Source: a virus. Taken from it: a stretch of 39,241 bases of DNA. The position numbers and the translations under genes are program-made. The DNA is taken from positions 1 to 39,241 of the IMG/VR virus record IMGVR_UViG_3300022698_000188; one strand, given 5' to 3'. The notes beneath the pieces were generated by a model. The model did not search any database. It worked only from the letters and a program-made list of their open reading frames with translations, and was not told the origin of the DNA. Positions 103 to 22,784 of this stretch are shown piece by piece; within the stretch, counting starts at the first letter, position 1, and the number at the start of each line of letters is the position of its first letter.

Positions 103-507
103 TCAGAAAAGAGAAAGTTGAGAGTCGTCTTCGGCGGTGTAGCGAGCCTGAATACGGAACACCCTTCGCCTGGGGATGCGATGGCGACTCGCGATCTTGT
201 TGACGGCCTCTCCGTTGGCCAATGAGGTCAGGACATCGGCCACAAGGAGCGCCTCGCGACTGGTGTGGAGGAGAGGAATATCCAGATACTCACCATAGAA
301 GCGGTGCTGAAATGGTGGGTACTTCGGGCCTAACAGGCTGGCCAACTCTGAGTCAGGGCGTGGCACCTTATGCACGCAAATCTGTTGACCGCCGTATTGC
401 TCGACGATTTGCAGCAATCCATCCATACCGATCGTATCGGCGATATCCCGTGCCAGGCTCGGCAGGGCGTCGACAGGGAGCGGATTAGGATTGGGTTTTG
501 CCGGCAT
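103..507 (-). CDS. mor: Mor-family middle/late transcription activator
   Basis: A 134-aa protein matching the Mor/C family of Mu in length and architecture. The N-terminal half (about residues 15-80) has the LARDIADTIG...LLQIVEQYGGQQI pattern of the dimerisation domain. A C-terminal helix-turn-helix follows (about 95-125, GEAVNKIASRHRIPRRRVFRI). In Mu, Mor is made late in the early operon and binds dyad sites about 44 bp upstream of its start point. Here the gene is the last of the leftward early operon and overlaps its upstream neighbour by 23 nt. It is the only Mor/C homologue in the prophage, so it may act directly on the two late dyads at 13086 and 21578 (inference). Confidence 0.88.
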   Translation of the reverse strand: MPAKPNPNPLPVDALPSLARDIADTIGMDGLLQIVEQYGGQQICVHKVPRPDSELASLLGPKYPPFQHRFYGEYLDIPLLHTSREALLVADVLTSLANGEAVNKIASRHRIPRRRVFRIQARYTAEDDSQLSLF

Positions 508-2101: not shown

Positions 2102-3295
2102 TCACACCTCCCTCAACACTTCTTGTACAAGATCGCCGGTCACCTGCGGCGCGCCGACCTTCACCGCCTTGCGCATGGCGCCGGCCACCAGATTGCCCAC
2201 TGCCAGCGGATAGACCAGGCTGATCGGCGTGGCATTGCGCCGCCCTCTGGGCACCATGGTCAGGCAATTCTGCACCTCCGACACCGCATCCGGCGTCAAG
2301 ACCGCATCCAACTGCGCGCCCTGGCGGGCAAATTTATGCTGCAGATAGTTCGGTAGCTCGTTATCCAGTGCCCGCAAATGCACCACCTCGCACCGCTGCA
2401 CCACCTCGCGCACCGACGGGTCCGACTCCCTCAGTCTCAATCCAAGCTCGGGCTGACCGATCAGAAGCACGCCAATCAGTCGGCTCCATTCGGACTCCAG
2501 CTCCACAATCCGCTTCAGATGTTTGATCGTGGGCGTCGGCAAACTGTGCGCCTCTTCGATAATCAACAGGTGCTTGAATCCGGCCCCCAGGCTCTCTGTC
2601 AGCACCTGTTGCACCTGGGCCATGCGAGCCTGAGAATCACGCTTCAGCCGCTCTTTCGGGGCCAATGTGGAGACAATGGTGTGAGCGATGTCAATCGCTT
2701 TCATCGTCTTCCCCTCTTTGTCTCGCTCGCTCATCCCCCACACGTGAGGCTGAATCACGCGGATTTGCTCATTGTCCCTCTTGATGCGGTCGATCAAATC
2801 CCTGCGCAGCATGGACTTGCCGCTCCCGGACTCCCCGACCAACGCCATCATCTCTCCGTTGGGGCGCAAAAACCGCTGCCAAATCGTCTCGCGCACATGG
2901 CGCAGTTCAGGAGAAAACCACATATCCTCGTGACTGCGCAGTTCGTTGTGAAAAGGGTCCCTAAACAACTGAAAATGCCGCAGCTCATCGCTGGACAACC
3001 GAATCGCTCGCAACAACATGACCATCTCCTCCGGGTTCTTGCCGGCAAGCCCCGCCGGCTGGGTATTCGACTCGTCCAGCGCCTGGGGCTCGACCTCCAA
3101 GCGCCACTGTCTCAACTGCTCCCCTTTAACGCCACGGGCCACCAGCCAGCGGCGCACCTGCTCGAAGCTCACCCGCTTGGGCTCGCGGCCGTGGTTGAGC
3201 CACTCCGCCACCGTCGTGGGGCTCAGGTCCATGGCTCGCCCGAAATCCGCCTGGGAGACGCTAAGGTCCTGCAAAATCTTCTTGAGGCGGATCAT
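2102..3295 (-). CDS. B: MuB-like transposition ATPase (AAA+) with N-terminal HTH
   Basis: A 397-aa protein. Residues 1-55 form a Cro/CI-type helix-turn-helix (SQADFGRAMDLSPTTVAEWL). The AAA+ core has Walker A GESGSGKS at 154-161, Walker B LLIIEEAH at 243-250, and a sensor-1-like LLIGQPEL at 277-284. This is the layout of MuB and related target-selection ATPases, though it is longer than MuB as I remember it (about 312 aa). It should polymerise on DNA with ATP, capture target DNA, activate the A transposase and help confer target immunity. It is separated from A by three genes; in Mu the two are adjacent. Its start overlaps the upstream stop by 4 nt. Confidence 0.9.
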   Translation of the reverse strand: MIRLKKILQDLSVSQADFGRAMDLSPTTVAEWLNHGREPKRVSFEQVRRWLVARGVKGEQLRQWRLEVEPQALDESNTQPAGLAGKNPEEMVMLLRAIRLSSDELRHFQLFRDPFHNELRSHEDMWFSPELRHVRETIWQRFLRPNGEMMALVGESGSGKSMLRRDLIDRIKRDNEQIRVIQPHVWGMSERDKEGKTMKAIDIAHTIVSTLAPKERLKRDSQARMAQVQQVLTESLGAGFKHLLIIEEAHSLPTPTIKHLKRIVELESEWSRLIGVLLIGQPELGLRLRESDPSVREVVQRCEVVHLRALDNELPNYLQHKFARQGAQLDAVLTPDAVSEVQNCLTMVPRGRRNATPISLVYPLAVGNLVAGAMRKAVKVGAPQVTGDLVQEVLREV

Positions 3296-4211: not shown

Positions 4212-4441
4212 ATAAACTCATCAATAGGCGGGGTTGGAAACCAATGCGTAACCCAACCTTCCAGGCCGGTGGTTCCGGACCCGTCGTCCAAACAGTGCTG
4301 GATGCCGTCTAACCCTTCTGCCTCGGTGAATCGCAGGCCAACAAAGTCCATACCTTGCGGATACGGTTTTTTGGTGACGGGGATGAAGCGGCAGCCAGCA
4401 ACCGCTTCGATCAACTTGTCCAGCTCGCTGCGCTCGCTCAC
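4208..4441 (-). CDS. Small early protein of unknown function
   Basis: A 77-aa acidic protein between transposase A and the DUF2786 gene, with 4-nt overlaps on both sides. It contains GLRFTEAEGLDGIQHCLDDGSG and ends PPIDEFM. I recognise no family. Its operon position suggests an accessory role in transposition, which is inference only. Confidence 0.62.
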   Translation of the reverse strand: MSERSELDKLIEAVAGCRFIPVTKKPYPQGMDFVGLRFTEAEGLDGIQHCLDDGSGTTGLEGWVTHWFPTPPIDEFM

Positions 4442-6246
4442 CTCACCACCTCCAACCCCGCCCCGCGGGTCTCCACCTCACCCCCGGCGCACAGCCGCTC
4501 CAGCTCCCCCTCCGGCATCCCCTCGGCCCAGCGCCCGCTCAGCCACTGGTACTCCTGCGGGCTCAGCGAGCGGCCCCAGGCATCCGCCAGGCGGCTCAGG
4601 GCACGCATTAGTGGCACGGGCGCGGTGCGGTCCTCCGGCGCCTCGGCGGGGATCTCGGTGCCGCGCCTATCTATATAGGTAGGGGTCTCGATCTTGGAGA
4701 GATGGCTCACGGCGTCGAGCTTGCCGTCGAACGGGGTGACCTGCTTCTGCCGCGCCTTGCGGGCGGCGGTGCGGATGTCCTCCCCGTCCCGGGCCTCGGT
4801 GGTGGTCTGCTGCGGATAGGCCAGTTGTTCCAAGCGGTCGGCGGTGTGCTCGGCGGCCCGCTTGGGCGGGGCCTTGTGCTCCTCGCCCCAGACCGCCACC
4901 TGCAGCGGCTGGCCGAATTCGTCCAGCGCCTCGATCGGCGCCAGGCGCCAGGTCTGCTCCTCGCCGGTCAGATCGGTCCAACGCAGGCGCACCGCACAGC
5001 TCTGCCCTTCGGCGCCGATCAATAGCGGCGCCAGCTCAACCCGGTCGCCTCGGTGTACGCCCTCGCAGCTGCGCAGGTCGTACTGCAAACTGTGAGGCGC
5101 GGCCGGGTGGCGGTAGGAGACCCGCAGCTGCGGCGATACCACCCGCTCTATCCGCTTACCCTCCAGCAGCTTGGCGCACACCTCGCGCGGCGGCAGCTCG
5201 CGCAGCTGCTCCGGGCGGATCTTCATCCACAGCTCGGCCCGCACGTAGGGCTGCGCTCCAGGCCGGCGCAGGCGGCTGTCGATGCGCCGCAGCGAGTTGG
5301 TGTTCCACGCCTCGCACCACGCCACCGCCGCCGCGTTCAGCTCCTCCACCGTATCCACCGGCTCGTACCGCAGCCGCGCCTCGAAATTGCGCTCGACGAT
5401 GTTTTGCGCTCCCTCGACCTGTCCCTTGACGTTGGAGCGCTCTGTCGCGTGCTCTATCGCCCGCACGTCCAGCGACCCCAGCAGCCGCTGCACCCCGTGG
5501 GCGATATTGGCCGAGCCCTTGTCCCACACCAGGATCCGCGGCACTCCGTGCCCGGTGCGCCCCGCCTGCCGGCCCCAGGTCCAGCACAAAAACTCGAACG
5601 TCAACGCCTGCGACTCGCCCGCCGCCTCAAAATAGCGCACGTCGATCACGCTGGAGGCGTGATCCGTGCGCACGTAACGCCAAACCTTCAGTTTGACCTT
5701 TGCATACTTATCCAGCTTATTTTTATAGAACTCATTGTCTCGCATAATGAACTGCCGGCCCTGCAGGTAATACACCACGCACACCGACGGGTCGATCTGG
5801 TGCACGTGATTAGGATGCTCCGAACGCATCTGCACAAAATGCTCCGCCTGCGCCCGCCCCTTGCGGTCCATGCGCTCCTGGCGCATCCGTCGGGCCACCT
5901 GCTGATTCGAGACCGGCACCTCGATCCCGCTCTCCTCGACGATAGAGCAGCACCCCGCAATGGTCGTGATCTGCTTCCCGTTCTCCCGCTGCCCCTCCCG
6001 ATAAATCGCCCCGATCGTATCCAGCGCCTCGTCGCTCAAGGCGCTCTTGCCCGCGTCCTGGCGCTGCTTGCGCCCACTCTGCCACCCCCCATAGTCCCGT
6101 AGCCGCCGATACGCCGTCTGCGGACTGATGCCGTTCGCCTTGGCTGCCTGGTGCACCAGGCGGGTCTGCTCACCACGTCCGGCGGCAGTCACCTTTTGGG
6201 CCAGGTCGTGCCAATAACGGACGATTTCAGGGTTGACTTGGGGCAT
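4438..6246 (-). CDS. A: Mu-type DDE transposase (A protein)
   Basis: A 602-aa protein close to MuA in length. An N-terminal DNA-binding part includes an HTH (about 30-50, VHQAAKANGISPQTAYRRL). The RNase H-fold core carries a plausible catalytic triad: D152 in HQIDPS, D242 in VWDKGSAN and E278 in KGQVEG, spaced as DD(35)E. A beta-barrel-type domain follows (about 370-470), then a C-terminal tail expected to contact B. It would assemble the two prophage ends, nick their 3' ends next to CA and carry out strand transfer for integration and replicative transposition. The N-terminal region appears shorter than in MuA, so an enhancer-binding Ialpha domain is not obvious. Confidence 0.93.
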   Translation of the reverse strand: MPQVNPEIVRYWHDLAQKVTAAGRGEQTRLVHQAAKANGISPQTAYRRLRDYGGWQSGRKQRQDAGKSALSDEALDTIGAIYREGQRENGKQITTIAGCCSIVEESGIEVPVSNQQVARRMRQERMDRKGRAQAEHFVQMRSEHPNHVHQIDPSVCVVYYLQGRQFIMRDNEFYKNKLDKYAKVKLKVWRYVRTDHASSVIDVRYFEAAGESQALTFEFLCWTWGRQAGRTGHGVPRILVWDKGSANIAHGVQRLLGSLDVRAIEHATERSNVKGQVEGAQNIVERNFEARLRYEPVDTVEELNAAAVAWCEAWNTNSLRRIDSRLRRPGAQPYVRAELWMKIRPEQLRELPPREVCAKLLEGKRIERVVSPQLRVSYRHPAAPHSLQYDLRSCEGVHRGDRVELAPLLIGAEGQSCAVRLRWTDLTGEEQTWRLAPIEALDEFGQPLQVAVWGEEHKAPPKRAAEHTADRLEQLAYPQQTTTEARDGEDIRTAARKARQKQVTPFDGKLDAVSHLSKIETPTYIDRRGTEIPAEAPEDRTAPVPLMRALSRLADAWGRSLSPQEYQWLSGRWAEGMPEGELERLCAGGEVETRGAGLEVVR

Positions 6247-11906: not shown

Positions 11907-12368
11907 GTGATCGGCCCAAGAATTAAAGAGGAGCGCGAAAGACTGCACCTGACCCAGGCAAAGCTGGCGGCAGCCTGCGGGATAGGGCGGCGCACGTTGG
12001 TCGATTGGGAGAAGGGCAAGTCTTCGCCCACTGCGGTGCAGTTATCTGCACTTTTAGAGATGGGATTTAATATTGTATATATCTTGACGGGAGAGACAAA
12101 GGTCGCGGAAGAGGGGGCTGGGTACGAAGCGGGTGAATTTCCGGAAAAACTAAAGAGTTTTTTTCTCTGGCTCCGCGACTACCTAAAAAACGCCGACGAA
12201 GAGGAGTTGACCTGGTTCCACCGCCAGGCCGCGAAGTGTTTCCCGGACTACGCCGAATACCTCGGCGCACAAACTGTGCTCAGCCGCTACGGCCTGCAAT
12301 ACAGCCCGGACGACCTCGATTACCCAGGTGCCGAAGAGGTCGAAAAACGGCGCAAAGAGAAAAAGTAA
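11907..12368 (+). CDS. XRE-family prophage repressor
   Basis: A 153-aa protein. Residues 2-60 form a canonical XRE helix-turn-helix (IGPRIKEERERLHLTQAKLAAACGIGRRTLVDWEKGKSSPTAVQLSALLEMGFNIVYILTG). A helical C-terminal domain (about 75-153) has no Ser-Lys autoprotease pair. It is divergent from the early operon and reads from the weaker of two overlapping promoters, so it is the likely c repressor. I chose the GTG start at 11907 because the HTH begins right after it; no good Shine-Dalgarno sequence precedes it. The next gene overlaps its stop codon (TAATG). Confidence 0.8.
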   Translation: MIGPRIKEERERLHLTQAKLAAACGIGRRTLVDWEKGKSSPTAVQLSALLEMGFNIVYILTGETKVAEEGAGYEAGEFPEKLKSFFLWLRDYLKNADEEELTWFHRQAAKCFPDYAEYLGAQTVLSRYGLQYSPDDLDYPGAEEVEKRRKEKK

Positions 12369-12722: not shown

Positions 12723-12995
12723 CTACGCTCGGTACCCCGGATGCGCCAACCTCAGCGCGATGCGTTTCGCCAGCGGCGAGGCGGCAGGGCACCGGGAGAG
12801 CCACAGCATCAACTGCCCGTCGCGCCAGTCCTGCCGGCGAGTGGCGCCGGAGACGTGACTCATTTGCCGCTTTGAAATCTTCGGCCCCGCCAACCCACTG
12901 AGCCGGTCGGCGTTCCATAGCCGGCGGACAATGCGCTCATCGGCGGGGGCCCACTGACGTGGGTTTTCCATCCATTGGGGTGTTTTTTTCGCCAC
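12723..12995 (-). CDS. Conserved-looking small basic protein, leftward
   Basis: A 90-aa protein. I chose the GTG start at 12995 (MAKKTPQWMENPRQW) because AAGAAGGG lies 7 nt upstream; an internal ATG at 12971 lacks such a site. The sequence is basic (DERIVRRLWNADRLSGLAGPKISKRQMSHVSGATRRQDW) and may hold an HTH-like segment. It stands alone between the convergent lysogenic operon (5-nt gap) and the late promoter region. Function unknown. Confidence 0.6.
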   Translation of the reverse strand: MAKKTPQWMENPRQWAPADERIVRRLWNADRLSGLAGPKISKRQMSHVSGATRRQDWRDGQLMLWLSRCPAASPLAKRIALRLAHPGYRA

Positions 12996-13033
12996 TGCGC
13001 GCCCTTCTTGAATTAACCCGAAAATTCGACCCG

Positions 13034-13049: not shown

Positions 13050-13085
13050 GCGCGGGGTAATCTGACACCATCTCACCACTCCAAT

Positions 13086-13110
13086 GCACAGTGACACCCT
13101 GTCACCGTGC
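13086..13110. promoter_or_regulatory. 25-bp dyad, candidate Mor-type activator site of the first late operon
   Basis: GCACAGTGACA and TGTCACCGTGC form 11-bp arms around CCC, with one mismatched pair. The identical 25 bases recur at 21578-21602. Its centre is 47 nt before the ATG at 13145. With CACACT (13131-13136) as a weak -10, transcription would start about 43-45 nt after the dyad centre. That is the geometry of Mor/C-activated promoters, and it would leave almost no leader. The place matches Plys of Mu. Confidence 0.62.
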
Positions 13111-13144
13111 CGACTCTCCCGCCGATCCCCCACACTGGCCCCGT

Positions 13145-13357
13145 ATGGAGCGGCCAGTCACCTCCGCCACACTGCCCAAGCGCCCGCGCCACTACGCCGC
13201 CGAGATCATAGCTCTGCCCAAAGCCGAGCGCCGGGCGGCCCTGGCGCAGGTCCCCGCCGAGCTGCGGGACTGGGTACGGCACCTGATTGAAGACTGGCAC
13301 GCCAAAGCCAAGAGCCGCGCTCGCTGGGAGCGCAACCTGTGGGAGGGCATGCCGTGA
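13145..13357 (+). CDS. First late gene, small protein of unknown function
   Basis: A 70-aa protein starting MERPVTSATLPKRP. I chose this ATG because the frame further upstream runs through the promoter dyad. It is helical and basic (HYAAEIIALPKAERRAALAQVPAELRDWVRHLIEDWHAKAKSRARW). No Shine-Dalgarno sequence is visible, consistent with a leaderless message. Proteins of this size and pattern open late operons in several Mu-like phages; their role is unknown to me. Confidence 0.68.
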   Translation: MERPVTSATLPKRPRHYAAEIIALPKAERRAALAQVPAELRDWVRHLIEDWHAKAKSRARWERNLWEGMP

Positions 13358-13379
13358 TTAAATAATCGGAGACAAAATC

Positions 13380-13589
13380 ATGAATCTGCCCGACATCGAA
13401 GTCGTATCCGCCCAGGTGCACGAGAGCTGGATGGCCGCCAAGCGCGCGGCCGGTGTTACCAGCCGGCAACTGGAGAGCGGCGAGGAGCTGATGGTGCCCT
13501 ACGAGCAGCTTAGCGAAGAGGCAAAAGAGCTGGACCGCGGCACGGTGCGTACCGTGTACCAGGCCATCCACGCCGCGAAGAGCGGTTGA
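13380..13589 (+). CDS. RyR-domain-like small phage protein
   Basis: A 69-aa protein. VHESWMAAKRAAG followed by LMVPYEQLSEEAKELDRGTVRTVYQAI fits the RyR repeat pattern (H-x-x-W, then VPY-x-x-L-x-x-x-x-K-x-x-DR). Short RyR-like proteins are frequent in phages, but what they do is unclear. It is preceded by GGAG, about 9 nt upstream. Confidence 0.7.
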   Translation: MNLPDIEVVSAQVHESWMAAKRAAGVTSRQLESGEELMVPYEQLSEEAKELDRGTVRTVYQAIHAAKSG

Positions 13590-13614
13590 CGCGCAACCGA
13601 ATCGGAGACCACCC

Positions 13615-13863
13615 ATGACTGTACCCGCCTACGAGCCGGCCAAATCCTGGTACCAATCCCGTGGCGTCCTCGGCGGCCTGGTCGCCGCCCTGGCCGCCGT
13701 GCTCTCCCTGTGGGGCCTGGAGGTGGACCAGGCGGCCCTGACCGACATCCTGCTGGCCGTCGGCGGCCTGGCCGGCGGCGGCCTGGCCGTCTACGGCCGC
13801 GTGCGCGCCGAGCGGCCGATTCGGCGGGCACCGGCCACGCTCGACCGTCTGCCGCCGGAATAG
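13615..13863 (+). CDS. Putative holin
   Basis: An 82-aa protein. After AKSWYQSRG come two hydrophobic segments (about 17-35, GVLGGLVAALAAVLSLWGL; about 41-60, LTDILLAVGGLAGGGLAVYG), then a basic tail (RVRAERPIRRAP). Size, topology and the WYQSRG-to-YGRVRA pattern match proteins annotated as holins at this place in transposable phages. It would open the inner membrane for the M15 endolysin encoded at 18309. Confidence 0.72.
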   Translation: MTVPAYEPAKSWYQSRGVLGGLVAALAAVLSLWGLEVDQAALTDILLAVGGLAGGGLAVYGRVRAERPIRRAPATLDRLPPE

Positions 13864-13866
13864 CCC

Positions 13867-14208
13867 ATGGACTACACCGCCTGGAAGTTCTGGCTCGACG
13901 TGGCGCAAGTTTTGGTCACCGCTGCCATCGGCATCTACGTCTGGCTGGGCAACCGCAACCGGGTCACCAACGAGCGGATTCAAACGCTCGAAGACGATGT
14001 CGACGAGCGCCTGGACAGCCACGGCAACCGCTTGACGCGGATCGAGGCCAAGCAAGAGACGGCCCCCAGTCGCGCCGATGTAGGCCGGATACATGCCCGG
14101 ATCGACGGTGTAGATAAGGCGGTGTCTTCACTGGACGGAAAATTCGAACGGGTGGCCAACACCCTGGACTTGATCCACAGCTATCTGCTCAACGGTAAAC
14201 AAAAATGA
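13867..14208 (+). CDS. Mu gp25-like protein (DUF2730)
   Basis: A 113-aa protein with one N-terminal membrane segment (about 8-27, FWLDVAQVLVTAAIGIYVWL) followed by a coiled coil (about 35-105; ERIQTLEDDVDERLDSHGNRLTRIEAK). This matches the DUF2730 family of Mu gp25. Lying between holin and terminase, it may take part in lysis or membrane attachment, but the role is unproven. Confidence 0.78.
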   Translation: MDYTAWKFWLDVAQVLVTAAIGIYVWLGNRNRVTNERIQTLEDDVDERLDSHGNRLTRIEAKQETAPSRADVGRIHARIDGVDKAVSSLDGKFERVANTLDLIHSYLLNGKQK

Positions 14209-14504
14209 ACGGGTTCGACCAATACGCCAGGGAGCACCGCCGCCTGGAGATCCTCTCGCTGCTGAGCGAAAGCGCCGGATACCAGGTCAATCACTTGGTG
14301 CTGCGCGAGGCCCTGGGCGGCAGAGGGTACCCGGCCAGTCTAGACGCGGTGGCCGGTGACCTGAATTGGCTCGCCGAACAAGGATTGGTGCAGGTACAGC
14401 AGATCGAGGACATCCGCATCGCCACCCTTACCTCCCGCGGGCAGGACGCAGCCGCCGGCCGCGCCGTCGTGCCGGGCGTCGCCCGCCCGCTGCCCGGCGC
14501 TTGA
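14205..14504 (+). CDS. Mu gp26-like winged-helix protein
   Basis: A 99-aa protein. ILSLLSESAGYQVNHLVLREALGGRGYPASLDAVAGDLNWLAEQGLVQV (about 16-65) is a winged helix-turn-helix typical of the gp26 / VpaChn25_0724-like family of Mu-like phages. A Gly/Ala/Pro tail follows. It overlaps gp25 by 4 nt. The family precedes the small terminase gene, so a role in packaging or late control is possible. Confidence 0.75.
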   Translation: MNGFDQYAREHRRLEILSLLSESAGYQVNHLVLREALGGRGYPASLDAVAGDLNWLAEQGLVQVQQIEDIRIATLTSRGQDAAAGRAVVPGVARPLPGA

Positions 14505-14510
14505 TGAGCC

Positions 14511-15104
14511 ATGGGCCGCCGCTCCAAAGTCCGGTCCGCCCCTGACGCCCTGCGCGAGGCGGTTGACGCCGCCATCCGCGCCGGGTGGACGGTAGACGAG
14601 ATCCACGCCGAAGCCGAGCGGGTGGCCGGCGAGATCGACCTGCCGGAGGACGAAATCCCCAGCCGCTCCAGCCTCGGCCGTTACCGCGCCAGCGTCGAGC
14701 GCCAGATGGAGCACTACCGCCAGGCCCAGCAGCTCGCCTCGGTCTGGGCCGAGCAGCTGCCGGACAACGGCGACGTGGCCCAGCTCACCCGCCAGGTACT
14801 CAGCACCCTGGCGTTCCAGGCGGCCGGCCAAATGTCCGACGACGAAGACATCAACGGCAAAGAGGTCGCCTGGCTGGCTCGGGCGCTGAAGGATATCGCC
14901 ATGTCCAGCCGCATGGACGTGGAGACGCGGGCCAAGATCAAGGCGGAGGCCGCCGAAGAGGCCGCCGAAGAGGCCGCCGCCAAGCTGCGCGAAATGGAGC
15001 ACGAAGACGCCCAAGGCGGCGCCCGCACCCTGGACCCCGAGACCCTGCGCCGCATCCGCGAAGAGGTCTACGGCATCGTGGATGGTCCCGACGATGCGCC
15101 CTGA
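14511..15104 (+). CDS. Mu gp27-like small terminase (DUF3486)
   Basis: A 197-aa protein. The N-terminus MGRRSKVRSAPDALREAVDAAI and SRSSLGRYRASVERQME match DUF3486, the small terminase subunit of Mu-like phages. Two helical stretches follow, one very rich in Ala and Glu (AEAAEEAAEEAAAKLREMEHE, about 145-165). It recognises phage DNA for headful packaging together with the large subunit encoded immediately downstream; the two genes overlap. Confidence 0.85.
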   Translation: MGRRSKVRSAPDALREAVDAAIRAGWTVDEIHAEAERVAGEIDLPEDEIPSRSSLGRYRASVERQMEHYRQAQQLASVWAEQLPDNGDVAQLTRQVLSTLAFQAAGQMSDDEDINGKEVAWLARALKDIAMSSRMDVETRAKIKAEAAEEAAEEAAAKLREMEHEDAQGGARTLDPETLRRIREEVYGIVDGPDDAP

Positions 15105-16515
15105 GATCCGCGACACCCCCGGCAAGCACCACCCCAGCCGCCGCCATGCCGTGCCCCTGCACCGCTACCAGCGGGTGTGGTTTCTGGATCGCAGCCGCTT
15201 CAAGATCGGCATGTTCGCCCGCCAGACGGGCAAGACTTTTACCACGACGCTGGAGATCGTAGACGACTGCTTCGAGGCCGAATCCCAGGGCAAGCGCACC
15301 AAATGGGTCATCCTCTCCCGCGGCGAGCGCCAGGCGCGCGAGGCCATGGAAGCGGTCAAGACCCACTGCAAGGCCTACAGCCTGGCGGTGCATGAGATCG
15401 AGGGGGAGTTCGAGACCGAAAAGGGCGAGACCTACAAGCAATTGGAGGTGATCCTGCCCGGCGGCTCGCGCATCATCGGCCTACCCGCCAACCCCGACAC
15501 CGCCCGCGGCTTCAGCGCCAACGTCTATCTCGACGAGTTCGCGTTTCACCAAGACAGCCGAGCGATCTGGAAGGCGCTGTTCCCGGTCATCTCCGCCGGC
15601 TTCAAGATCCGCATCACCAGCACCCCCAACGGCAAAAGCAATAAGTTCTATGACCTGGTGACCGGCAAGTCCAAGGTGTGGAGCCGCCATCAGACCGATA
15701 TCTACCAGGCCGTGGAAGACGGTCTGGAGCGCGACATCGAAGAGCTGCGAGAAGGCCTGGACGACGCCGACGCCTGGCAGCAGGAGTACGAGCTCAAATG
15801 GCTCGACGAGGCCTCAGCCTGGCTCCCCTACGACCTGATATCCACCGTAGAGCACGAACAGGCCGGCGACCCCGAGCAGTACCAGGGTGGCCCCTGCTAC
15901 GTCGGCAACGACATCGCCCGCAAGCACGATCTTTGGGTCGCCTGGGTGTGGGAGAAGATCGGCGACGTGCTCTGGACCCGGGAGATCAGCATCCTCAAGG
16001 GCGCCAGCTTTGCCGAGCAGGACGCGGAGCTGGACCGCATCATGGACAAATACCGCGTGGTCCGCCTCTGCATGGATCAGACCGGCATGGGCGAAAAGCC
16101 GGTGGAAGACGCCCAGCGTCGCTACGGCGAGCACCGGGTGGAAGGGATCATGTTCACCGGCCCCAATAAACACCTGCTGGCCCGGGTCGGCAAAGAGGCG
16201 TTCCAAGACCGTACCTGCCGCATCCCCCAGGGTGACCCCAGGCTGCGGGCCGATCTGCACTCCCTGAAAAAGATCCAGACCGAGACCGGTGCCCCCCGCT
16301 TCCTGGCCGAGTCCGACGAGGCCACCGACAGCCACGCCGACCGCGCCTGGAGCGGCTTTCTCGGCCTGCAGGCGGCCAACGATCCGGAGTGGTCTTCCGA
16401 ATGGGAAAGCGCTCCCCGGAGTGATTCCTGGACCGGCGGCCGACGGGCTGACGACGACAACCCCGACAACCCCGCCGACACCGGCGGCCTGAGCTTCGGA
16501 GGCGCCGCATGGTGA
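15094..16515 (+). CDS. terL: Large terminase subunit (Mu gp28-like)
   Basis: 473 aa from MRPEIRDT; an ATG four codons upstream (15082) is equally possible, and neither has a strong ribosome site. Numbering from the upstream ATG, Walker A is ARQTGKT (46-52) and Walker B is VYLDE (148-152). The RNase H-like nuclease has D277 (VGNDIARKHD), D332 (CMDQTGMG) and D416/D420 (DSHAD). It translocates DNA into the capsid and cuts it after a headful. The C-terminal 50 residues are acidic and disordered (RRADDDNPDNPADT). Confidence 0.92.
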   Translation: MRPEIRDTPGKHHPSRRHAVPLHRYQRVWFLDRSRFKIGMFARQTGKTFTTTLEIVDDCFEAESQGKRTKWVILSRGERQAREAMEAVKTHCKAYSLAVHEIEGEFETEKGETYKQLEVILPGGSRIIGLPANPDTARGFSANVYLDEFAFHQDSRAIWKALFPVISAGFKIRITSTPNGKSNKFYDLVTGKSKVWSRHQTDIYQAVEDGLERDIEELREGLDDADAWQQEYELKWLDEASAWLPYDLISTVEHEQAGDPEQYQGGPCYVGNDIARKHDLWVAWVWEKIGDVLWTREISILKGASFAEQDAELDRIMDKYRVVRLCMDQTGMGEKPVEDAQRRYGEHRVEGIMFTGPNKHLLARVGKEAFQDRTCRIPQGDPRLRADLHSLKKIQTETGAPRFLAESDEATDSHADRAWSGFLGLQAANDPEWSSEWESAPRSDSWTGGRRADDDNPDNPADTGGLSFGGAAW

Positions 16516-16676
16516 CCCGCGGGCCCGGTCTGCACATTCGCCAGATCGACGTAGGCGAGGACCTGTGGGAGATGGATGCCAATTCCGACCGGTATTGGCC
16601 TCGCTGCATGGCCATCAAAACGCTTGCCTGGTTCGCCTGTGGGCACCCCAGGTTCTACCGCTGGCGGTGGATATGA
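16509..16676 (+). CDS. Small protein between terminase and portal
   Basis: A 55-aa protein starting at an ATG that overlaps the terminase stop by 7 nt. It reads MVTRGPGLHIRQIDVGEDLW, continues ANSDRYWPRCMAIKTLAWFA and ends RWRWI. It is rich in Trp and Arg. No family recognised. Coupling to terL and use of the whole gap make it credible, but it is short. Confidence 0.5.
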   Translation: MVTRGPGLHIRQIDVGEDLWEMDANSDRYWPRCMAIKTLAWFACGHPRFYRWRWI

Positions 16677-16701
16677 GTCGCGCAGCATTCGGAGAGACCC
16701 C

Positions 16702-18312
16702 ATGGCAGTAACCATAAAATCCCTCGTCCGCCGCCTCTTCGGCCCCGCCGCCGATCAGGCTGTGACCGAGCAGCAGACCGACCAGGCCGAGCAGCGCTCC
16801 ATGGTGGGCCAGCTCAAGCGCGAATTTGCCGAGCACCCCTCCAAGGGCCTCACGCCTGCCCGGCTCTACCAGATCCTGGAGAGCGCAGAACAGGGCGATA
16901 TCAAGGCGCAGCACGAGCTGTACGCCGACATGGAGGAGAAGGACCCCCAGATCCAATCGGACCTGGGCAAGCGCCGCTTGGCCGCGGCGGAGCTGGAGTG
17001 GCAGATCGTCCCGCCGGACGGCGCCAACCGCGCCGAGCGCAAGGCCGCCGATCAGGCCGCCGAGGCGTTTTCCGGGCTGGAGGTGGAAGACTTGATCATC
17101 GAGCTGGGCGACGGCATCGGCCACGGCTGGGTCAACCTGGAGCTGCCCTGGGACCGCGAGGGCGATACCCGGGTGATAGAGCAGCCCATCCATAGGCCCC
17201 ACGGCTGGTTCCGGCTGGACCCCGAAGACCAGAACCGGCTGCGTCTGCGCGACGGTTCCGCCTTCGGCGCCGAGCTGTGGCCACTGGGGTGGATCGAGCA
17301 CCGGCACAAGGCCAAGAGCGGCTACCTCTCTCGCCTGGGCCTGATGCGTACCCTGGCGTGGCCCTACCTGTTCCAAAACTACGCCCTGGGCGACCTGGCC
17401 GAGCTGCTGGAGCTGCTGGGCATCCCGGCCCGGCTCGGTCGCTACCCCGCCAACGCCACCGACAAGGAGAAAGCGACCTTGTTGAAGGCGGTCACCAGCC
17501 TGGGCCACTCGGCGGCCGGCATCATCCCGCGTGAGATGGAGATCGAATACCTGGACGCGGCCAACAGTACCCAGGACCTCTACTCGGTAATGCTCGAATG
17601 GTGCGAACGATCCAAAAGCAAAGCCATCCTCGGCGGTACCCTGACCACCGGCACCGACGCCGGCGCCGGCGCCTACGCCCTGGGCGAGGTGCACGAGCGG
17701 GGGCTCCAGAGCCTGGTATCCAGCGACTGCCGCCAGCATGCCGGCTCCATTCGCCGCTACATCCTCTGGCCCATGGCGGCCATGAACTTTGGTATCACCG
17801 ACCGGCGCCGGGCACCGCGGTTCTATATCGACACCGGCGAGGCGGAAGACTTCAAGCTGCTGGCAGAGACCCTGCCCATCTTCGTCGAGATGGGCGCCCG
17901 CATCTCTCAGCGCTGGTTCCACGACAAGACCAAGATCCCGGAGGCAGGCAAGGGCGAGCCGGTGCTCGGCCCCGCCGCCAAGGCGCCGGCGGCCCCGCCG
18001 GAAACGGCGGCCCTCAAGGGCGAGACCAAGCCTACCGACCCTGCCGAGCAGTCCCTGGACACGCTCCAGCCCCCCGACCCCACCGCCCTCCAGCGCCAGG
18101 CCGAGGCCCTGCTGGCACCGATCCTGGGCGAAGGGGCCGCCCCCGCCGCCCTGATGGCCGCCGCCGCAGAAGGCGAGGAGGCGTTGCTGGCCCACTTGGC
18201 CGGGCTCTACCCGCAGATGGACGGGGCGGAGCTGGAGGAGCAGCTGGCGAAAATGATTTTCATCTCCGAGCTGTGGGGACAGATTCAAGCCGACCAGGAG
18301 GCCGAGACATGA
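16702..18312 (+). CDS. Portal protein (Mu gp29-like, DUF935)
   Basis: A 536-aa protein starting MAVTIKSLVRRLF, with GGAGAG 6-7 nt upstream. Family features include TPARLYQILESAEQGDIKAQHELYADMEEKDPQIQSDLGKR (about 48-90), EWQIVPP, HGWFRLDPEDQNRLRL, and the closing part with GTLTTGTDAGAGAYALGEVHE (about 310-332). This is the DUF935 portal of Mu-like phages, the dodecameric ring through which DNA is packaged and where the tail attaches. The last 130 residues are a low-complexity Ala/Pro/Glu tail. Confidence 0.92.
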   Translation: MAVTIKSLVRRLFGPAADQAVTEQQTDQAEQRSMVGQLKREFAEHPSKGLTPARLYQILESAEQGDIKAQHELYADMEEKDPQIQSDLGKRRLAAAELEWQIVPPDGANRAERKAADQAAEAFSGLEVEDLIIELGDGIGHGWVNLELPWDREGDTRVIEQPIHRPHGWFRLDPEDQNRLRLRDGSAFGAELWPLGWIEHRHKAKSGYLSRLGLMRTLAWPYLFQNYALGDLAELLELLGIPARLGRYPANATDKEKATLLKAVTSLGHSAAGIIPREMEIEYLDAANSTQDLYSVMLEWCERSKSKAILGGTLTTGTDAGAGAYALGEVHERGLQSLVSSDCRQHAGSIRRYILWPMAAMNFGITDRRRAPRFYIDTGEAEDFKLLAETLPIFVEMGARISQRWFHDKTKIPEAGKGEPVLGPAAKAPAAPPETAALKGETKPTDPAEQSLDTLQPPDPTALQRQAEALLAPILGEGAAPAALMAAAAEGEEALLAHLAGLYPQMDGAELEEQLAKMIFISELWGQIQADQEAET

Positions 18313-18902
18313 AGCGAAAAGAGATCATCCGCATACAAGAGCGTGTCGGCACGATTCCGGACGGGTTCTGGGGGCCGAAGTCCATCGCCGCCTGCCAGGC
18401 CCATCTGCGCCGTCTCATGCCCGACGACAACCCTTTTCCGCACCAGGGCACGCGGGCATTCGACCAATTCTACGGTCCCCACGGCGTACCCCGCGGCTAC
18501 ACCCCGCCGGGCAAAAACTTCCGCCTGCCGTTCGCGATCTACTACGGCAACACCCCGGTGCGCAGTCTCACAGCCCACGCACGCTGCGCCGACAGCCTGC
18601 AACGCGCTTTCGAGCGCCTGGCCGAGGTCTACCCCGACGAAAAGTCCCGCCGGGCCGCAGGCATCCTCACCTACGCCGGCCTCTACAACCCCCGCCGGAT
18701 GCGCGGCGCCCGGGCCTGGAGCCTGCACGCCTGGCGCTGCGCCATCGACCTGGACCCCGCCAGAAATCGTAATAGATCGGCCTGGCCGGTACGCTCAAGC
18801 ATGCCTATTGAGGTCATGGAGTGTTTCGCCCGCGAAGGTTGGCTCTCCGCCGGCGCCTTCTGGGGCCGGGATGCCATGCACTTCCAGGCCACCGCGCCAT
18901 GA
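18309..18902 (+). CDS. Endolysin, peptidoglycan-binding plus M15 peptidase
   Basis: A 197-aa protein. Residues 5-35 (EIIRIQERVGTIPDGFWGPKSIAACQAHL) form a peptidoglycan-binding-like repeat. Residues 85-197 form an M15-type (VanY/endolysin) zinc peptidase with S138-x-H140-x6-D147 (SLHAWRCAID) and D188-x-x-H191 (WGRDAMHF). Ligands would be H140, D147 and H191. M15 endolysins cut L-Ala-D-Glu or related peptide bonds in the wall. There is no signal peptide, so export depends on the holin. Overlaps with both neighbours are 4 nt. It lies inside the head gene cluster, about 4.4 kb from the holin. Confidence 0.82.
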   Translation: MKRKEIIRIQERVGTIPDGFWGPKSIAACQAHLRRLMPDDNPFPHQGTRAFDQFYGPHGVPRGYTPPGKNFRLPFAIYYGNTPVRSLTAHARCADSLQRAFERLAEVYPDEKSRRAAGILTYAGLYNPRRMRGARAWSLHAWRCAIDLDPARNRNRSAWPVRSSMPIEVMECFAREGWLSAGAFWGRDAMHFQATAP

Positions 18903-19168
18903 TGGATCTGCTGCCGTCCTGCGGCTGGTGTCGCTACTGGGATGCTTCGGCACGGCCGGTGCGCGCAAAGAGCGGGCGCGTGATGTACGGGCTGGGGTAT
19001 ACGTGTACCTACCCCTACCCGCTGCCTGGGGATGCTCCCGCGTGCGTAAAACGGCGCCCGATGTGCGCTCACGACGGGATCGGTTGCGGTCATTTCCAAG
19101 TAGGCACCCCTAACAGCGCCGGTCGGCCGCTGGACGCACTGGCCCAGGCACTGATGAGAGATGCCTGA
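18899..19168 (+). CDS. Small cysteine-rich protein
   Basis: An 89-aa protein starting MMDLLPSCGWCRYW, overlapping the endolysin stop by 4 nt and the gpF start by 8 nt. Cysteines occur as CGWC, TC, AC, MC and GC (RRPMCAHDGIGCGHF), enough for one or two zinc sites. Alternatively it could be a lysis accessory protein; no signal peptide or lipobox is present, so it is not a clear spanin. Function unknown. Confidence 0.6.
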   Translation: MMDLLPSCGWCRYWDASARPVRAKSGRVMYGLGYTCTYPYPLPGDAPACVKRRPMCAHDGIGCGHFQVGTPNSAGRPLDALAQALMRDA

Positions 19169-20555
19169 TCTAGACCTCTCCGCCGTCTTTCGCCTGCAGC
19201 CGAAAGAGATCGTCGCCTGGTTCGAAGCCAAGGGCTACCAGGTCACCGGCGACTGGTGGGAGCTCTGGCAAGAGGCCCATGCCCGCAAATTCACCGTCGC
19301 CCACCTGGCCCGCCTCGACCTGCTCAAGGACGTGGCCGCCGAGGTAGGCAAGATCTACCGCGACGGCATGACCGAGCGGGAGTTCCTCCAGGAGCTGGAG
19401 CCGCGCCTCAGAAAGGCCGGCTGGTGGGGCAAGACGGAGCTGGAGGACGGCCGCATCGTCCGGCTTGGATCGATCCACCGGCTGAAAACCATTTACCGCA
19501 CCAACAAGCGCACCGCCTACAACGCCGGGCGCTACCGCGAGCAAGTAGAGCGGGCCAAGTCTCGCCCTTACTGGCAGTACATCGCGGTCATGGACAGCCG
19601 TACCCGTCCAGATCACGCCGCGCTCAACGGGAAAATATTCAGATGGGACGACCCTATCTGGAACTGGCTCTACCCCCCCAACGGCTGGGGCTGCCGCTGC
19701 CGGGTGCGTGCGCTCTCCGAGGCCTACGTCAAGCGCCATGGGCTGGTAGTCTCCAGCTCCGAAGGGCAACTGGAGCAGGTCATGCAGCAGGTGGGCGTGG
19801 ACAAATCCACCGGAGAGGTGATCGAGCGCCCCGGCGTCAAATGGACCGACCCGGTTACCGGCGACGTGCTGCTGCCGGACCCGGGGTGGAGCTACAACCC
19901 GGGGCAAAAAGGCCCCGGCGACCTTTCCGAGCGGCTGCGCAAGCAGGCCGAGCACCTGGGTATCGATCTGCCCAAGCCCTTGCTCGACCTGCTGCGCCGC
20001 CGCCGTGGCCCCCGGCCGGCCGACGCTCAAGCCCTGACGTCCCAGGCCCGCGCCGCCGGTGTGGCCCCGGCGCTATTGGGGGACACTGCCGCACTACGTC
20101 AGGTGCTATCCTACAGTCAGGCCTTGGGCAACCCGGATATTGCGCGCATGATCAGCGCCGGCGGCCTACACGGGTCGGCGGTGCTGGCCCATGAGTTGGC
20201 GGAGATCCGCGCCCTGTTCGACAGTGGCTTAGACTGGGCCGATACCGCCGTCATGCGCCAAGTCAAGGCGGATTTTCTCCGGGCGAAAGAACAGCACCGC
20301 CCGGAACTGGCCCCCTGGCACTTGGCCGGTCTGCGCGCCGAGATCGACCACGCCCGCACGGGGCTTGCTCTCAGGGGTATCCAGGCCACCGAGGCGGAGG
20401 TGGCCCGGGCGTTGTACGATGGCATGCACCGCACGGGCCTCGAAGCACTGGTTTACGAGTTGGAAGCGATAGAGGTCAAATGGCCGAAACAGATCAATCC
20501 CAACCGGCTGAAGGAGCTGCTCCATGCGCTGGCGCTACCGCACCCTGAAAGTTGA
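19161..20555 (+). CDS. gpF-like head morphogenesis protein with extra C-terminal domain
   Basis: A 464-aa protein. The first 270 residues match the Mu gpF / SPP1 gp7 family: an N-terminal helical part, then TIYRTNKRTAYNAGRYRE, the AVMDSRTRPDHAALNGKIF block (about 140-160) and WLYPPNGWGCRCRVRAL (about 172-188). Mu gpF is a minor head protein injected or needed for capsid assembly. Residues about 285-464 form a separate helical domain containing AVLAHELAEIRALFDSG and LAPWHLAGLRAEIDHA. I do not recognise that domain; its HE pairs are worth examining. Confidence 0.85.
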   Translation: MPDLDLSAVFRLQPKEIVAWFEAKGYQVTGDWWELWQEAHARKFTVAHLARLDLLKDVAAEVGKIYRDGMTEREFLQELEPRLRKAGWWGKTELEDGRIVRLGSIHRLKTIYRTNKRTAYNAGRYREQVERAKSRPYWQYIAVMDSRTRPDHAALNGKIFRWDDPIWNWLYPPNGWGCRCRVRALSEAYVKRHGLVVSSSEGQLEQVMQQVGVDKSTGEVIERPGVKWTDPVTGDVLLPDPGWSYNPGQKGPGDLSERLRKQAEHLGIDLPKPLLDLLRRRRGPRPADAQALTSQARAAGVAPALLGDTAALRQVLSYSQALGNPDIARMISAGGLHGSAVLAHELAEIRALFDSGLDWADTAVMRQVKADFLRAKEQHRPELAPWHLAGLRAEIDHARTGLALRGIQATEAEVARALYDGMHRTGLEALVYELEAIEVKWPKQINPNRLKELLHALALPHPES

Positions 20556-20841
20556 GTCCGAGCTGATCGGGCTGCTGGTGCAGCCCGCCGACACCAGCGA
20601 GCCGGCCCACGTGGAGCCCGCGCGGACGGTGCTGGAGGCGTGGCCGGCGGCCCCGTTGCGCCCGGTGGATCTGGCCGAGCTGCTGCCGGTCGACGTGGCG
20701 GAAGACCGCTACCGTCCCGAGTACCTCTCCTTGGGGCCGGTACGGGAGGCCGGAGACCTGCCGGCCGGCGATGGGCGCGAGGAGATCATCGCACACGCCG
20801 CGCGTTGGCGAGAGATCGTAAAGGAGGAGCGGCGTGCCTGA
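20524..20841 (+). CDS. Small head-region protein of unknown function
   Basis: A 105-aa protein starting MRWRYRTLKVESELIGLLVQ, overlapping the end of gpF by 32 nt and gpG by 8 nt. Its middle is rich in Pro and Ala (AAPLRPVDLAELLPVDVAEDRYRPEYLSLGPV) and its end is charged. No family recognised. The overlaps and lack of alternative coding support it. Confidence 0.62.
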   Translation: MRWRYRTLKVESELIGLLVQPADTSEPAHVEPARTVLEAWPAAPLRPVDLAELLPVDVAEDRYRPEYLSLGPVREAGDLPAGDGREEIIAHAARWREIVKEERRA

Positions 20842-21370
20842 GCGCGATGCCAGAGGGCGATTTGTCCGGGCCGGCACTGGAGCGGGGCCGGCGGATGCGC
20901 CGGTATCTGTAGAGCTCCAATCCGCTGAGGTCACCCGCTACCTTTCCCGCCTCCAGGCCCGCCTCGGCGACCTCACCCCCCTGATGCGCGACATCGCCGG
21001 GGTGCTGGAGGACACCGCCCAGCAAGCGTTCGCGGACGAGTCCGACCCGGTCACCGGCGAGCCCTGGACGCCCCTGGGCCACAACGCTGCCAGTGAGGCC
21101 TACGTCCACCGCCCCGTCGACAAGGGCGGGCGCGGCGGCGACTACCACCCGGTTCTGCAGCGCGAAGGGGATATGGCCAAGCCAACCACCGACCACGGCA
21201 GCGACTACGCCCTGGTGGGTTGGAACGACCCCCAGGCCGCCCGGCAGAATTTCGGCGACGAGGACTACGAGGAGACCAAAAAAGGCATCCCTCCACGACC
21301 CTTTGCCGGCCTCTCCGAGGACGGCGAGCAGGAGATCTACGACCTGGGGGAGCGTTACATGCTCGGGTAG
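20834..21370 (+). CDS. gpG-like virion morphogenesis / tail completion protein
   Basis: A 178-aa protein with a GTG start preceded by AAGGAGG. The phage virion morphogenesis family (gpG of Mu, gpS of P2) is recognised by RDIAGVLEDTAQQAFADESDPVTGEPWTPL (about 56-85) and IPPRPFAGLSEDGEQEI (about 151-168). The protein is thought to complete or join tails. It is the last gene before a 265-nt gap that holds a hairpin and the second late promoter. Residues 10-25 are a disordered Gly/Ala linker. Confidence 0.82.
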   Translation: MPERDARGRFVRAGTGAGPADAPVSVELQSAEVTRYLSRLQARLGDLTPLMRDIAGVLEDTAQQAFADESDPVTGEPWTPLGHNAASEAYVHRPVDKGGRGGDYHPVLQREGDMAKPTTDHGSDYALVGWNDPQAARQNFGDEDYEETKKGIPPRPFAGLSEDGEQEIYDLGERYMLG

Positions 21371-21514
21371 GGCCTGAGACGCCCGGGAAAGCGTTTCGAA
21401 ACCCGACGCCGGCCTTTCCGAAGGTCGTCGCACCGCCAACCGCCTCGACGCCGTAGAACGGCTCTCAGAGGCTCTCTCGTCAGACAAAGCCCATCAAACT
21501 ACCACACCACCCCG

Positions 21515-21545
21515 AGCCCGGCCGCTGGCTGCAGCGTCCCGGGCT
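21515..21545. terminator. Strong hairpin ending the first late transcription unit
   Basis: AGCCCGG (21515-21521) pairs with CCGGGCT (21539-21545). Inside, CGCTG (21523-21527) pairs with CAGCG (21532-21536) around GCTG. No T tract follows, so it may slow or end transcription only with help from factors. It lies between gpG and the second late dyad. The gap 21371-21635 holds no gene that I can support; it also has a GTTTCGAAAC palindrome at 21393-21402. Confidence 0.4.
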
Positions 21546-21577
21546 GTGATAGCCTGATCCCACTCACCCCTCTCGCC

Positions 21578-21602
21578 GCACAGTGACACCCTGTCACCGT
21601 GC
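21578..21602. promoter_or_regulatory. 25-bp dyad, candidate Mor-type activator site of the second late operon
   Basis: All 25 bases are identical to 13086-13110. Its centre is 46 nt before the ATG at 21636. TACAGT (21622-21627) is a fair -10, predicting a start near 21634, so the message would be almost leaderless. GGGTCCG (21615-21621) and CGGACCC (21629-21635) form a 7-bp inverted repeat around that -10. The place corresponds to PI of Mu, upstream of the protease/scaffold gene. Confidence 0.65.
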
Positions 21603-21635
21603 CGCGCCGCGCCCGGGTCCGTACAGTGCGGACCC

Positions 21636-22784
21636 ATGGCGACCACCCCCCGCAAATCTACCGACCCGCGCACCCCCGTTGCGGTGCTGAGCCTGCAGCT
21701 GTCCGACTCGGACGGCGCCGTGCAGCTCACCCCCGACGGCCTGTTCCGTGCCCGCGACGGTCGGCCCAAGAATCTGCCGGGTTGGAAGTTGAATCCCGTG
21801 GTCGCCGCCAGGGTAATCGCCCGGCTTCGGACTCGGCAGACCCCCATCGTCATCGATTACGAGCACCAGACCCTGCTGGCCGACGACAACGGCCAGCCGG
21901 CCCCGGCGGCCGGTTGGATCGACCCCCAGACAATCGAGTACCGCGAAGGCTCCGGCCTGTGGGCGCCGGTGCGCTGGACCGACCGGGCCAAGGGTTACAT
22001 CGATGCCGGCGAGTACGCCTTCCTGTCGCCGGTGCTGCCGTACGACCCGCAAACCGGCGACGTCCTGGACCTGGTCCAGGTCGCCCTGACCAACTACCCG
22101 GCCGTGGACGGTATGGCGGCGGTGGCCGCGCTTTCCGCCCGGTTCGATCTTGATCCCACCTCACAGGAGAAACGCGTGAATCGTGAACAACTGATTGAGC
22201 TGCTCGGTCTGGCCGCAGACGCCACCGACCAGCAGATCCAGGCGGCCATGGTCGCCCTCAAGGCCCGTGGCGATCTGGTGAACCAGGTACGCCAGGCGCT
22301 CGGCGTGGAGGACGGTCAGCCGATATCGAATGCGGTTATCGCCCTCAAGGCCAAGGCCGACAGCGTGCCGGGACTGGAGCAGCAGATCGCCGCCCTCAAG
22401 GCCGGCGGTGCCGCGACCCCGGACCCGGCTCAGTGGGTCCCCAAGGCGGTCTACGACGAGGCCACCGGCGCACTCGCCGCCCTCAAGACCAGCGCCGGCG
22501 CCGAGGAGATCGATCGCCTGATCAAAGACGGCCTGGAGTCCGGCCAGATCCCCGGCAAGGCCACCGCCGACTGGCTGCGCGGCCAGGGCCTGGCCGCCCT
22601 CAAGACCTACCTGGGCGACGCCCCGGAGCTGGCCGCGCTCAAGGGTACCCAGACTAACGGCAAGCAGCCGCAGGAAGAGCAGGAGGCCGCTGGCGAGCTG
22701 AGCAAGGAGGAACTGGCGGTGTGCAAGGCCACCGGCGTCGCACCCGAGGATTTCAAGAAAACCAAGGCCGCGAAAGCCGCCTGA
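21636..22784 (+). CDS. Mu gpI-like prohead protease-scaffold
   Basis: A 382-aa protein. The N-terminal 180 residues are the protease (VAVLSLQLSDSDG, TPIVIDYEHQTLLADDNGQPAPAAGWIDP, YAFLSPVLPYDPQTGDVLDL), as in gpI of Mu; H73 in DYEHQ is a likely catalytic residue. The C-terminal 200 residues are a helical scaffold with six ALK motifs. The protease matures the prohead and removes the scaffold. The gene starts without a clear Shine-Dalgarno sequence just after the putative promoter. A separate scaffold start lies inside at 22176. Confidence 0.88.
   Translation: MATTPRKSTDPRTPVAVLSLQLSDSDGAVQLTPDGLFRARDGRPKNLPGWKLNPVVAARVIARLRTRQTPIVIDYEHQTLLADDNGQPAPAAGWIDPQTIEYREGSGLWAPVRWTDRAKGYIDAGEYAFLSPVLPYDPQTGDVLDLVQVALTNYPAVDGMAAVAALSARFDLDPTSQEKRVNREQLIELLGLAADATDQQIQAAMVALKARGDLVNQVRQALGVEDGQPISNAVIALKAKADSVPGLEQQIAALKAGGAATPDPAQWVPKAVYDEATGALAALKTSAGAEEIDRLIKDGLESGQIPGKATADWLRGQGLAALKTYLGDAPELAALKGTQTNGKQPQEEQEAAGELSKEELAVCKATGVAPEDFKKTKAAKAA
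22176..22784 (+). CDS. Nested scaffold protein (gpZ-like) in frame within the protease gene
   Basis: A GTG at 22176 begins VNREQLIELLGLAADATDQQ, in the same frame as the protease. CAGGAG ends 6 nt upstream. The 202-aa product would be the scaffold alone, as gene Z within gene I in Mu. It contains a charged coiled coil with repeated ALK motifs. The C-terminus (CKATGVAPEDFKKTKAAKAA) is typical of scaffold tails that bind the capsid protein. Confidence 0.72.
   Translation: MNREQLIELLGLAADATDQQIQAAMVALKARGDLVNQVRQALGVEDGQPISNAVIALKAKADSVPGLEQQIAALKAGGAATPDPAQWVPKAVYDEATGALAALKTSAGAEEIDRLIKDGLESGQIPGKATADWLRGQGLAALKTYLGDAPELAALKGTQTNGKQPQEEQEAAGELSKEELAVCKATGVAPEDFKKTKAAKAA

Follow-up and report, generated by a model that had tools for sequence, protein, structure and literature searches.

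In the window, which is the whole stretch of 39,241 nucleotides analysed here, a single Mor-type activator very probably acts directly on both late operons, which would be expressed from leaderless or nearly leaderless mRNAs. Among the relatives, comparison of promoters and activators makes it fairly likely that the Mor/C family of single-activator Mu-like phages reads its operators by a three-residue code, with a private operator for each phage, and that the late protease-scaffold mRNA is leaderless with its +1 at the AUG.

In the proposed mechanism, the last gene of the early operon (103-507, minus strand) would make the Mor/C-family activator, and a Mor dimer would sit on a dyad centred about 44 bp upstream of the start, taking the place of the -35 element. 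The bound Mor would then aid host sigma-70 RNA polymerase at the weak -10 boxes CACACT and TACAGT. One protein would turn on both late operons, the Mor-to-C step of Mu being omitted, and transcription from the ATG or 1-2 nt before it would place the first late gene and the I gene on leaderless or nearly leaderless mRNA. What is inferred in this scheme is that Mor dimerises, binds and activates, where exactly the 5' ends lie, and that translation is leaderless.

Mor/C homologue of the phage

The record is an IMG/VR virus contig of a Mu-like transposable phage, with homologues of the transposase (4438-6246) and of the transposition protein (2102-3295) on the minus strand. The final gene of the leftward early operon (103..507, minus strand) encodes a Mor/C-family late activator of 134 aa. 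This protein matched phrog_836 'late transcriptional activator' (E 2.2e-19 over residues 13-134) and HTH_23 (E 1.5e-4), and a family profile led by the window protein matched the structures of Mu C (E 3e-13) and Mu Mor (E 2e-10), one of the matched structures being a transcription initiation complex with Mu C. Its score against Pfam Mor (PF08765) was 13.3 bits, below the gathering cut-off of 24.9, and several other single-Mor phages are likewise distant from Mu Mor. It had been proposed that 103-507 holds the only Mor/C homologue, and a single match was indeed obtained in the record, which may lack its ends. A direct search of named phages and IMG/VR yielded no relatives of the window Mor, and no close relative with the same Mor was found.

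According to the structure model, helices are predicted at residues 102-109 and 113-125 with pLDDT of about 95, and the protein appears to carry a C-terminal helix-turn-helix (HTH), whose contact with the operator is a prediction. The recognition-helix segment RRRVFRIQA (residues 113-121; 145..171, minus strand) was placed by alignment, by the predicted helix and by co-variation with the operator, and its recognition residues are R114 (r2), F117 (r5) and R118 (r6), the counterparts being P-Y-Q in Mu C and N-Y-K in Mu Mor. In fold comparison, the C structure 9l0x_I aligned over 53 residues at Z 5.8, a score shared by other HTH proteins. The fold search gave no Foldseek match below 0.001 and a VIA Z under 8, with the Mor structure 1rr7 absent from the matches listed, so the fold adds little beyond an HTH.

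Repeated dyad and late promoters of the window

The preliminary description had reported the same 25 bases twice and nowhere else. The sequence GCACAGTGACACCCTGTCACCGTGC occurs in two exact copies with 0 mismatches in the whole window (13086-13110 and 21578-21602), a search allowing up to 3 mismatches brought up no other copy, and 100 dinucleotide shuffles gave no match. The identity between the copies is in fact 27 bp, reaching 13112 and 21604, and ends sharply on both sides. The 11-bp arms are complementary at 10/11 positions, with a single A-C mismatch, and the perfect core is GTGACA-CCC-TGTCAC. The spacer of the dyad is 5 nt; 4 nt is usual in the relatives, and 5 nt is rarer but present in two of them (L040 and L066).

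The candidate operator of the first late promoter (13086..13112, plus strand) has its core GTGACACCCTGTCAC at 13091-13105 (plus strand); it is an exact match absent elsewhere and is predicted by the recognition helix of the window Mor. The candidate operator of the I (protease-scaffold) promoter (21578..21604, plus strand), also an exact match, has its core GTGACACCCTGTCAC at 21583-21597 (plus strand) and lies within 1-3 nt of the palindromy peak of the relatives at -43.5 (n=176). No convincing third operator copy was found in the window. A Mu-style three-step cascade, with two Mor/C paralogues and a middle promoter, was likewise not found, the record, which may lack its ends, holding one homologue and no third operator. 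In a pattern scan of IMG/VR, the dyad was found in 25 stretches, mostly in one recurring sequence context, and among the contexts studied, which were a part of the total, none resembled a late promoter.

Both dyads stand close before a late gene, as had been described, the measured distances to the ATG being 34 nt for the first late gene (ATG 13145) and 33 nt for I (ATG 21636). The first late gene (13145..13357, plus strand; 70 aa) matched phrog_3648 (E 6.7e-9), and its start is backed by the alignment, in which the match begins at residue 7 opposite profile position 6. The I gene (21636..22784, plus strand) encodes a Mu-like protease-scaffold protein of 382 aa (PF10123, E 1e-94; phrog_328, E 1.5e-99). 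An ORF of 91 codons (12723-12998, minus strand), which matched nothing in PHROGs or NCBIfam, begins just upstream of the first late promoter.

A -10-like box was read from the sequence at each promoter, in agreement with the A-N3-T placement in the relatives: CACACT at 13131..13136 (plus strand; predicted +1 at 13143-13145) and TACAGT at 21622..21627 (plus strand; predicted +1 at 21634-21636). The hexamers 17 bp upstream of these boxes, GTGCCG and TGCCGA, agree with TTGACA at 3/6 and 2/6 positions. From the predicted +1 to the dyad centre, the distance is 45 nt for the first late promoter and 44 nt for I. The window promoters thus show the features of the Mor/C type, namely a dyad near -43.5 (about -44 and -45), a -10 box and no good -35. 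With the end of the -10 box 9 nt upstream of the ATG at both operon heads, the leader can be 0 to 2 nt long, and the late mRNAs of the window are predicted to be leaderless or to have a leader of 1-2 nt. No Shine-Dalgarno core was found at the first late gene (anti-SD energy -1.5) or at I (-2.6). At I, a perfect 7-bp inverted repeat, GGGTCCG-TACAGTG-CGGACCC (21615..21635, plus strand), holds the -10 box in its loop and abuts the ATG.

Upstream of the dyads, the partly shared flank noted earlier (CTGA..CTCACC) proved to be real and corresponds to a degraded operator-like dyad at both places: CTGACACCATCTCAC (CTGAC-ACCAT-CTCAC; 13062..13076, plus strand), with 8/10 core bases, and CTGATCCCACTCAC (CTGAT-CCCA-CTCAC; 21554..21567, plus strand), read from the sequence. 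Both sit exactly 29 bp 5' of the main operators. Tandem upstream operators as a general feature were rejected, the relatives being without excess at a shift of -30. The hairpins described upstream of each dyad are also present (-15.8 and -27.3 kcal/mol); they are without a T-run and are therefore not called terminators.

Late promoters in related phages

To compare the window with its relatives, Mu-like loci around the I gene were taken from IMG/VR and GTDB genomes and reduced to 189 clusters at 80% I-protein identity, of which 176 have an ATG start. A palindromy scan, aligned on the I start codon with no other assumption, has its maximum exactly 43.5 nt ahead of that codon (0.351, z 6.2; next 44.5; n=176). 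The dyads looked for in related phages are therefore present, and the proposed spacing of 43-45 bp between dyad centre and start agrees with both this peak and the 45 and 44 nt of the window. By the blind criterion, only 53/92 phages have clean dyads, and PI of Mu/D108 does not fit the operator consensus. In two of the loci (L268, 9493-9816; L254, 9439-9780), the Mor gene lies directly upstream of I, away from its usual place after the early operon.

The base composition at the I promoters shows A at -11 (68%) and T at -7 (59%), and the -10 box is followed by GGCGGC, with C at -1 (82%). The T of an A-N3-T box lies at -7, -8 and -9 in 97, 36 and 10 of the 176 promoters, against a background of about 5, a placement which would put the +1 at the A of the ATG or 1-2 nt before it. 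The Mor dimer at Mu Pm binds a dyad centred at -43.5, with no -35 (PMC4390567, PMC4287176). If the +1 is placed at the A of the ATG, the dyad at -43.5 in the relatives has the geometry of Mu Pm.

The Shine-Dalgarno core was present in 2% of the relatives at I and in 89% at the next gene (paired p 5e-28), and the anti-SD duplex energy was -1.9 kcal/mol at I versus -7.5 kcal/mol at the next gene. The first late genes of some relatives have leaders of about 20-25 nt, and for the I gene of Mu/D108 the same -10 reading would give a leader of about 6 nt. In this group, I is predicted as a rule to be transcribed from its ATG, which does not extend to all late promoters. The literature consulted held no report linking leaderless mRNA with Mu-like phages, and none mapping 5' ends in DMS3/JBD30-type phages.

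An inverted repeat around the -10 box, ending at -1 to -3 of the I ATG, was observed with stems of at least 5 bp in 49, 62 and 46 of the 176 loci at these offsets, and at the next gene in 0-1 of 167. In four first late promoters with a leader of about 20-25 nt (L053, L095, L274, L298), an inverted repeat separates the -10 box from the start codon. The repeat around the -10 box might influence promoter melting or keep the AUG silent on mRNA that reads through from upstream, and it could also mean a different 5' end.

The recurrence of the operator was counted in loci with at least 8 kb upstream. A second same-strand copy of the I stretch from -55 to -34 was found at p<=0.01 in 27/110 loci, versus 5 on the other strand, and since the flanks stop at 10 kb, this count is a lower bound. 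Among 30 phages examined as whole contigs, the majority had a second operator copy, usually right after Mor and ahead of the first late gene, and in some cases a third or fourth copy further along. The operators themselves vary between phages (CGGAACCCCTTCCG, TGAAGCGCTTCA, GTCCGATTTCGGAC, GGGCGCAATGATTGCGCCC and others). Exactly one Mor homologue was present in 59/61 loci, which supports the proposal of a single activator for both late operons, and exactly one Mor was found in nearly all of the 36 records with a match.

Co-variation of operator and Mor recognition segment

In about 90 related phages, the operator half-site (N1-N5) follows the Mor recognition segment (r1-r9). Within the training set, r2=R goes with N3=G (28:3 vs 0:13, p 1e-8) and r6=R with N5=C (9:0 vs 1:33, p 2e-8), and at r5 an aromatic residue goes with T2 in 45/50 arms, Arg with G2 in 10/14 and Glu with C2 in 4/4. 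The code proposed from these sequences would be r2 Arg for G3, r5 aromatic, Arg or Glu for T2, G2 or C2, and r6 Arg for C5.

The code was fixed in writing before new phages were fetched, and the validation set consisted of 22 new phages with under 80% I identity to any training phage. A phage's own Mor predicted its promoter at 0.808 versus 0.600 for permuted Mors in the training set, and at 0.773 versus 0.605 (sd 0.031) in the validation set (n=22); in each set, 0/2,000 permutations were as good. In the small validation set, only 9 phages had blind-chosen clean dyads, and the parts of the rule, when tested one by one in two-by-two tables, did not reach significance. Perfect code matches were found in 40/92 phages in place and in 0-3 after a shift of 4 bp or more, indicating that operator and Mor match at the -44 position and not beside it.

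When the helix columns were left out of the Mor tree, 7 changes were counted for r6=R and 7 for N5=C, and the well-supported independent pairs, with 4 in agreement and 0 opposite, are too few for a sign test. In the nearest row to the window (L077), r6 is N and the half-site CTGAA; the window pairs r6=R with GTGAC. For the window, R114, F117 and R118 predict T-G-x-C, and all four arms are GTGAC; a score of 1.0 is reached by none of the 11 codes in the set except that of the window, with or without r5. A search of the Mu record with the rule did not clearly locate the Pm dyad, and the code is drawn from operators predicted from sequence.

Alternative explanations

The dyad is a good two-fold site overlapping the promoter, and a Cro/CI-type HTH protein is encoded nearby, so both copies might instead bind a different regulator that keeps the late genes off in the lysogen, for example the repressor-like protein (11907-12368) or a host factor. 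This is very improbable, since neither the repressor nor the early promoter has a copy of the dyad in its vicinity, a centre at -44 in place of the -35 is typical of an activator, and in the relatives the operator varies with the recognition helix of Mor, a pattern that neither a repressor nor a host factor would account for. The same co-variation, seen in short arms of about 5 bp with 4-nt spacers at the same place, also bears on the suggestion that the dyad is an RNA hairpin (an attenuator or translational element) made from an upstream promoter, or a functionless recent copy. Such arms are too short for a useful terminator, no T-run is present, and the two copies diverge immediately outside the 27 bp. 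In spite of the 27 identical, hairpin-capable base pairs, this suggestion is the least credible of those weighed here.

Unlikely, but less so than these two, is a variant in which the activator is right and the mRNA starts upstream of the -10-like box, so that a hairpin abuts the AUG, translation is of a non-SD kind and I is not leaderless. In favour of such a start is the inverted repeat that encloses the -10-like box and, in many phages, ends just before the I ATG. The spacing of A(-11)...T(-7) and the dyad at exactly -43.5, however, agree with transcription from the ATG, and if it began earlier, the distance to the dyad would be too short for an activator of the Mor type. In addition, first late promoters with real leaders keep the dyad-to--10 spacing and add sequence after it. 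Direct action of one Mor-type activator, with a start at or beside the ATG, is accordingly preferred.

Comparison with known systems

The window system is a variant of the Mu Mor/C system, and in the best-supported reading its activator acts as Mu C does at Plys and PI, occupies the place of Mu Mor and dispenses with the middle step. As in Mu Mor/Pm, a homologous activator ends the early operon, and a dyad replaces the -35 and is followed by a -10 box (PMC4390567, PMC4287176). Mu Mor, however, serves only Pm, which makes C, whereas the one homologue of the window appears to serve both late operons directly, from a different operator sequence. Like Mu C, which acts on Plys, PI, PP and Pmom, a single Mor/C-family protein would have the same two operon heads under it, the lysis-side first late operon and I (PMC4461284), in line with the earlier equation of the two places with Plys and PI. 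In contrast to the Mu C system, the window is without a second paralogue or middle step, and two operators were found, not four. Its predicted start also lies at or beside the ATG, while the -10 of Mu PI is farther upstream.

Among the D3112/B3-type Pseudomonas phages (LPB1, MP22, H72), LPB1 has, like the window, one annotated Mor. In LPB1 and MP22, I has a dyad-like site near -44 and a GGCGGC-ATG start, and the operator TTGAA..TTCCC fits their own Mor helix (DRWIWE) and not that of the window. An inverted early region is common to Pseudomonas phage H72 and the window.

An operator code private to each phage and an I transcript without a leader were both absent from the literature consulted, a minor part of that on Mu, and may be new. 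The two-activator cascade of Mu is the textbook case. Most of the relatives examined carry one Mor-like activator, whose targets are not stated in the literature found, and the answer proposed here is that it acts on both late operons directly. If the code and the leaderless start are true, late operators and late 5' ends would be predictable from the Mor sequence alone, and private operators could keep co-resident Mu-like prophages from triggering each other's late genes.
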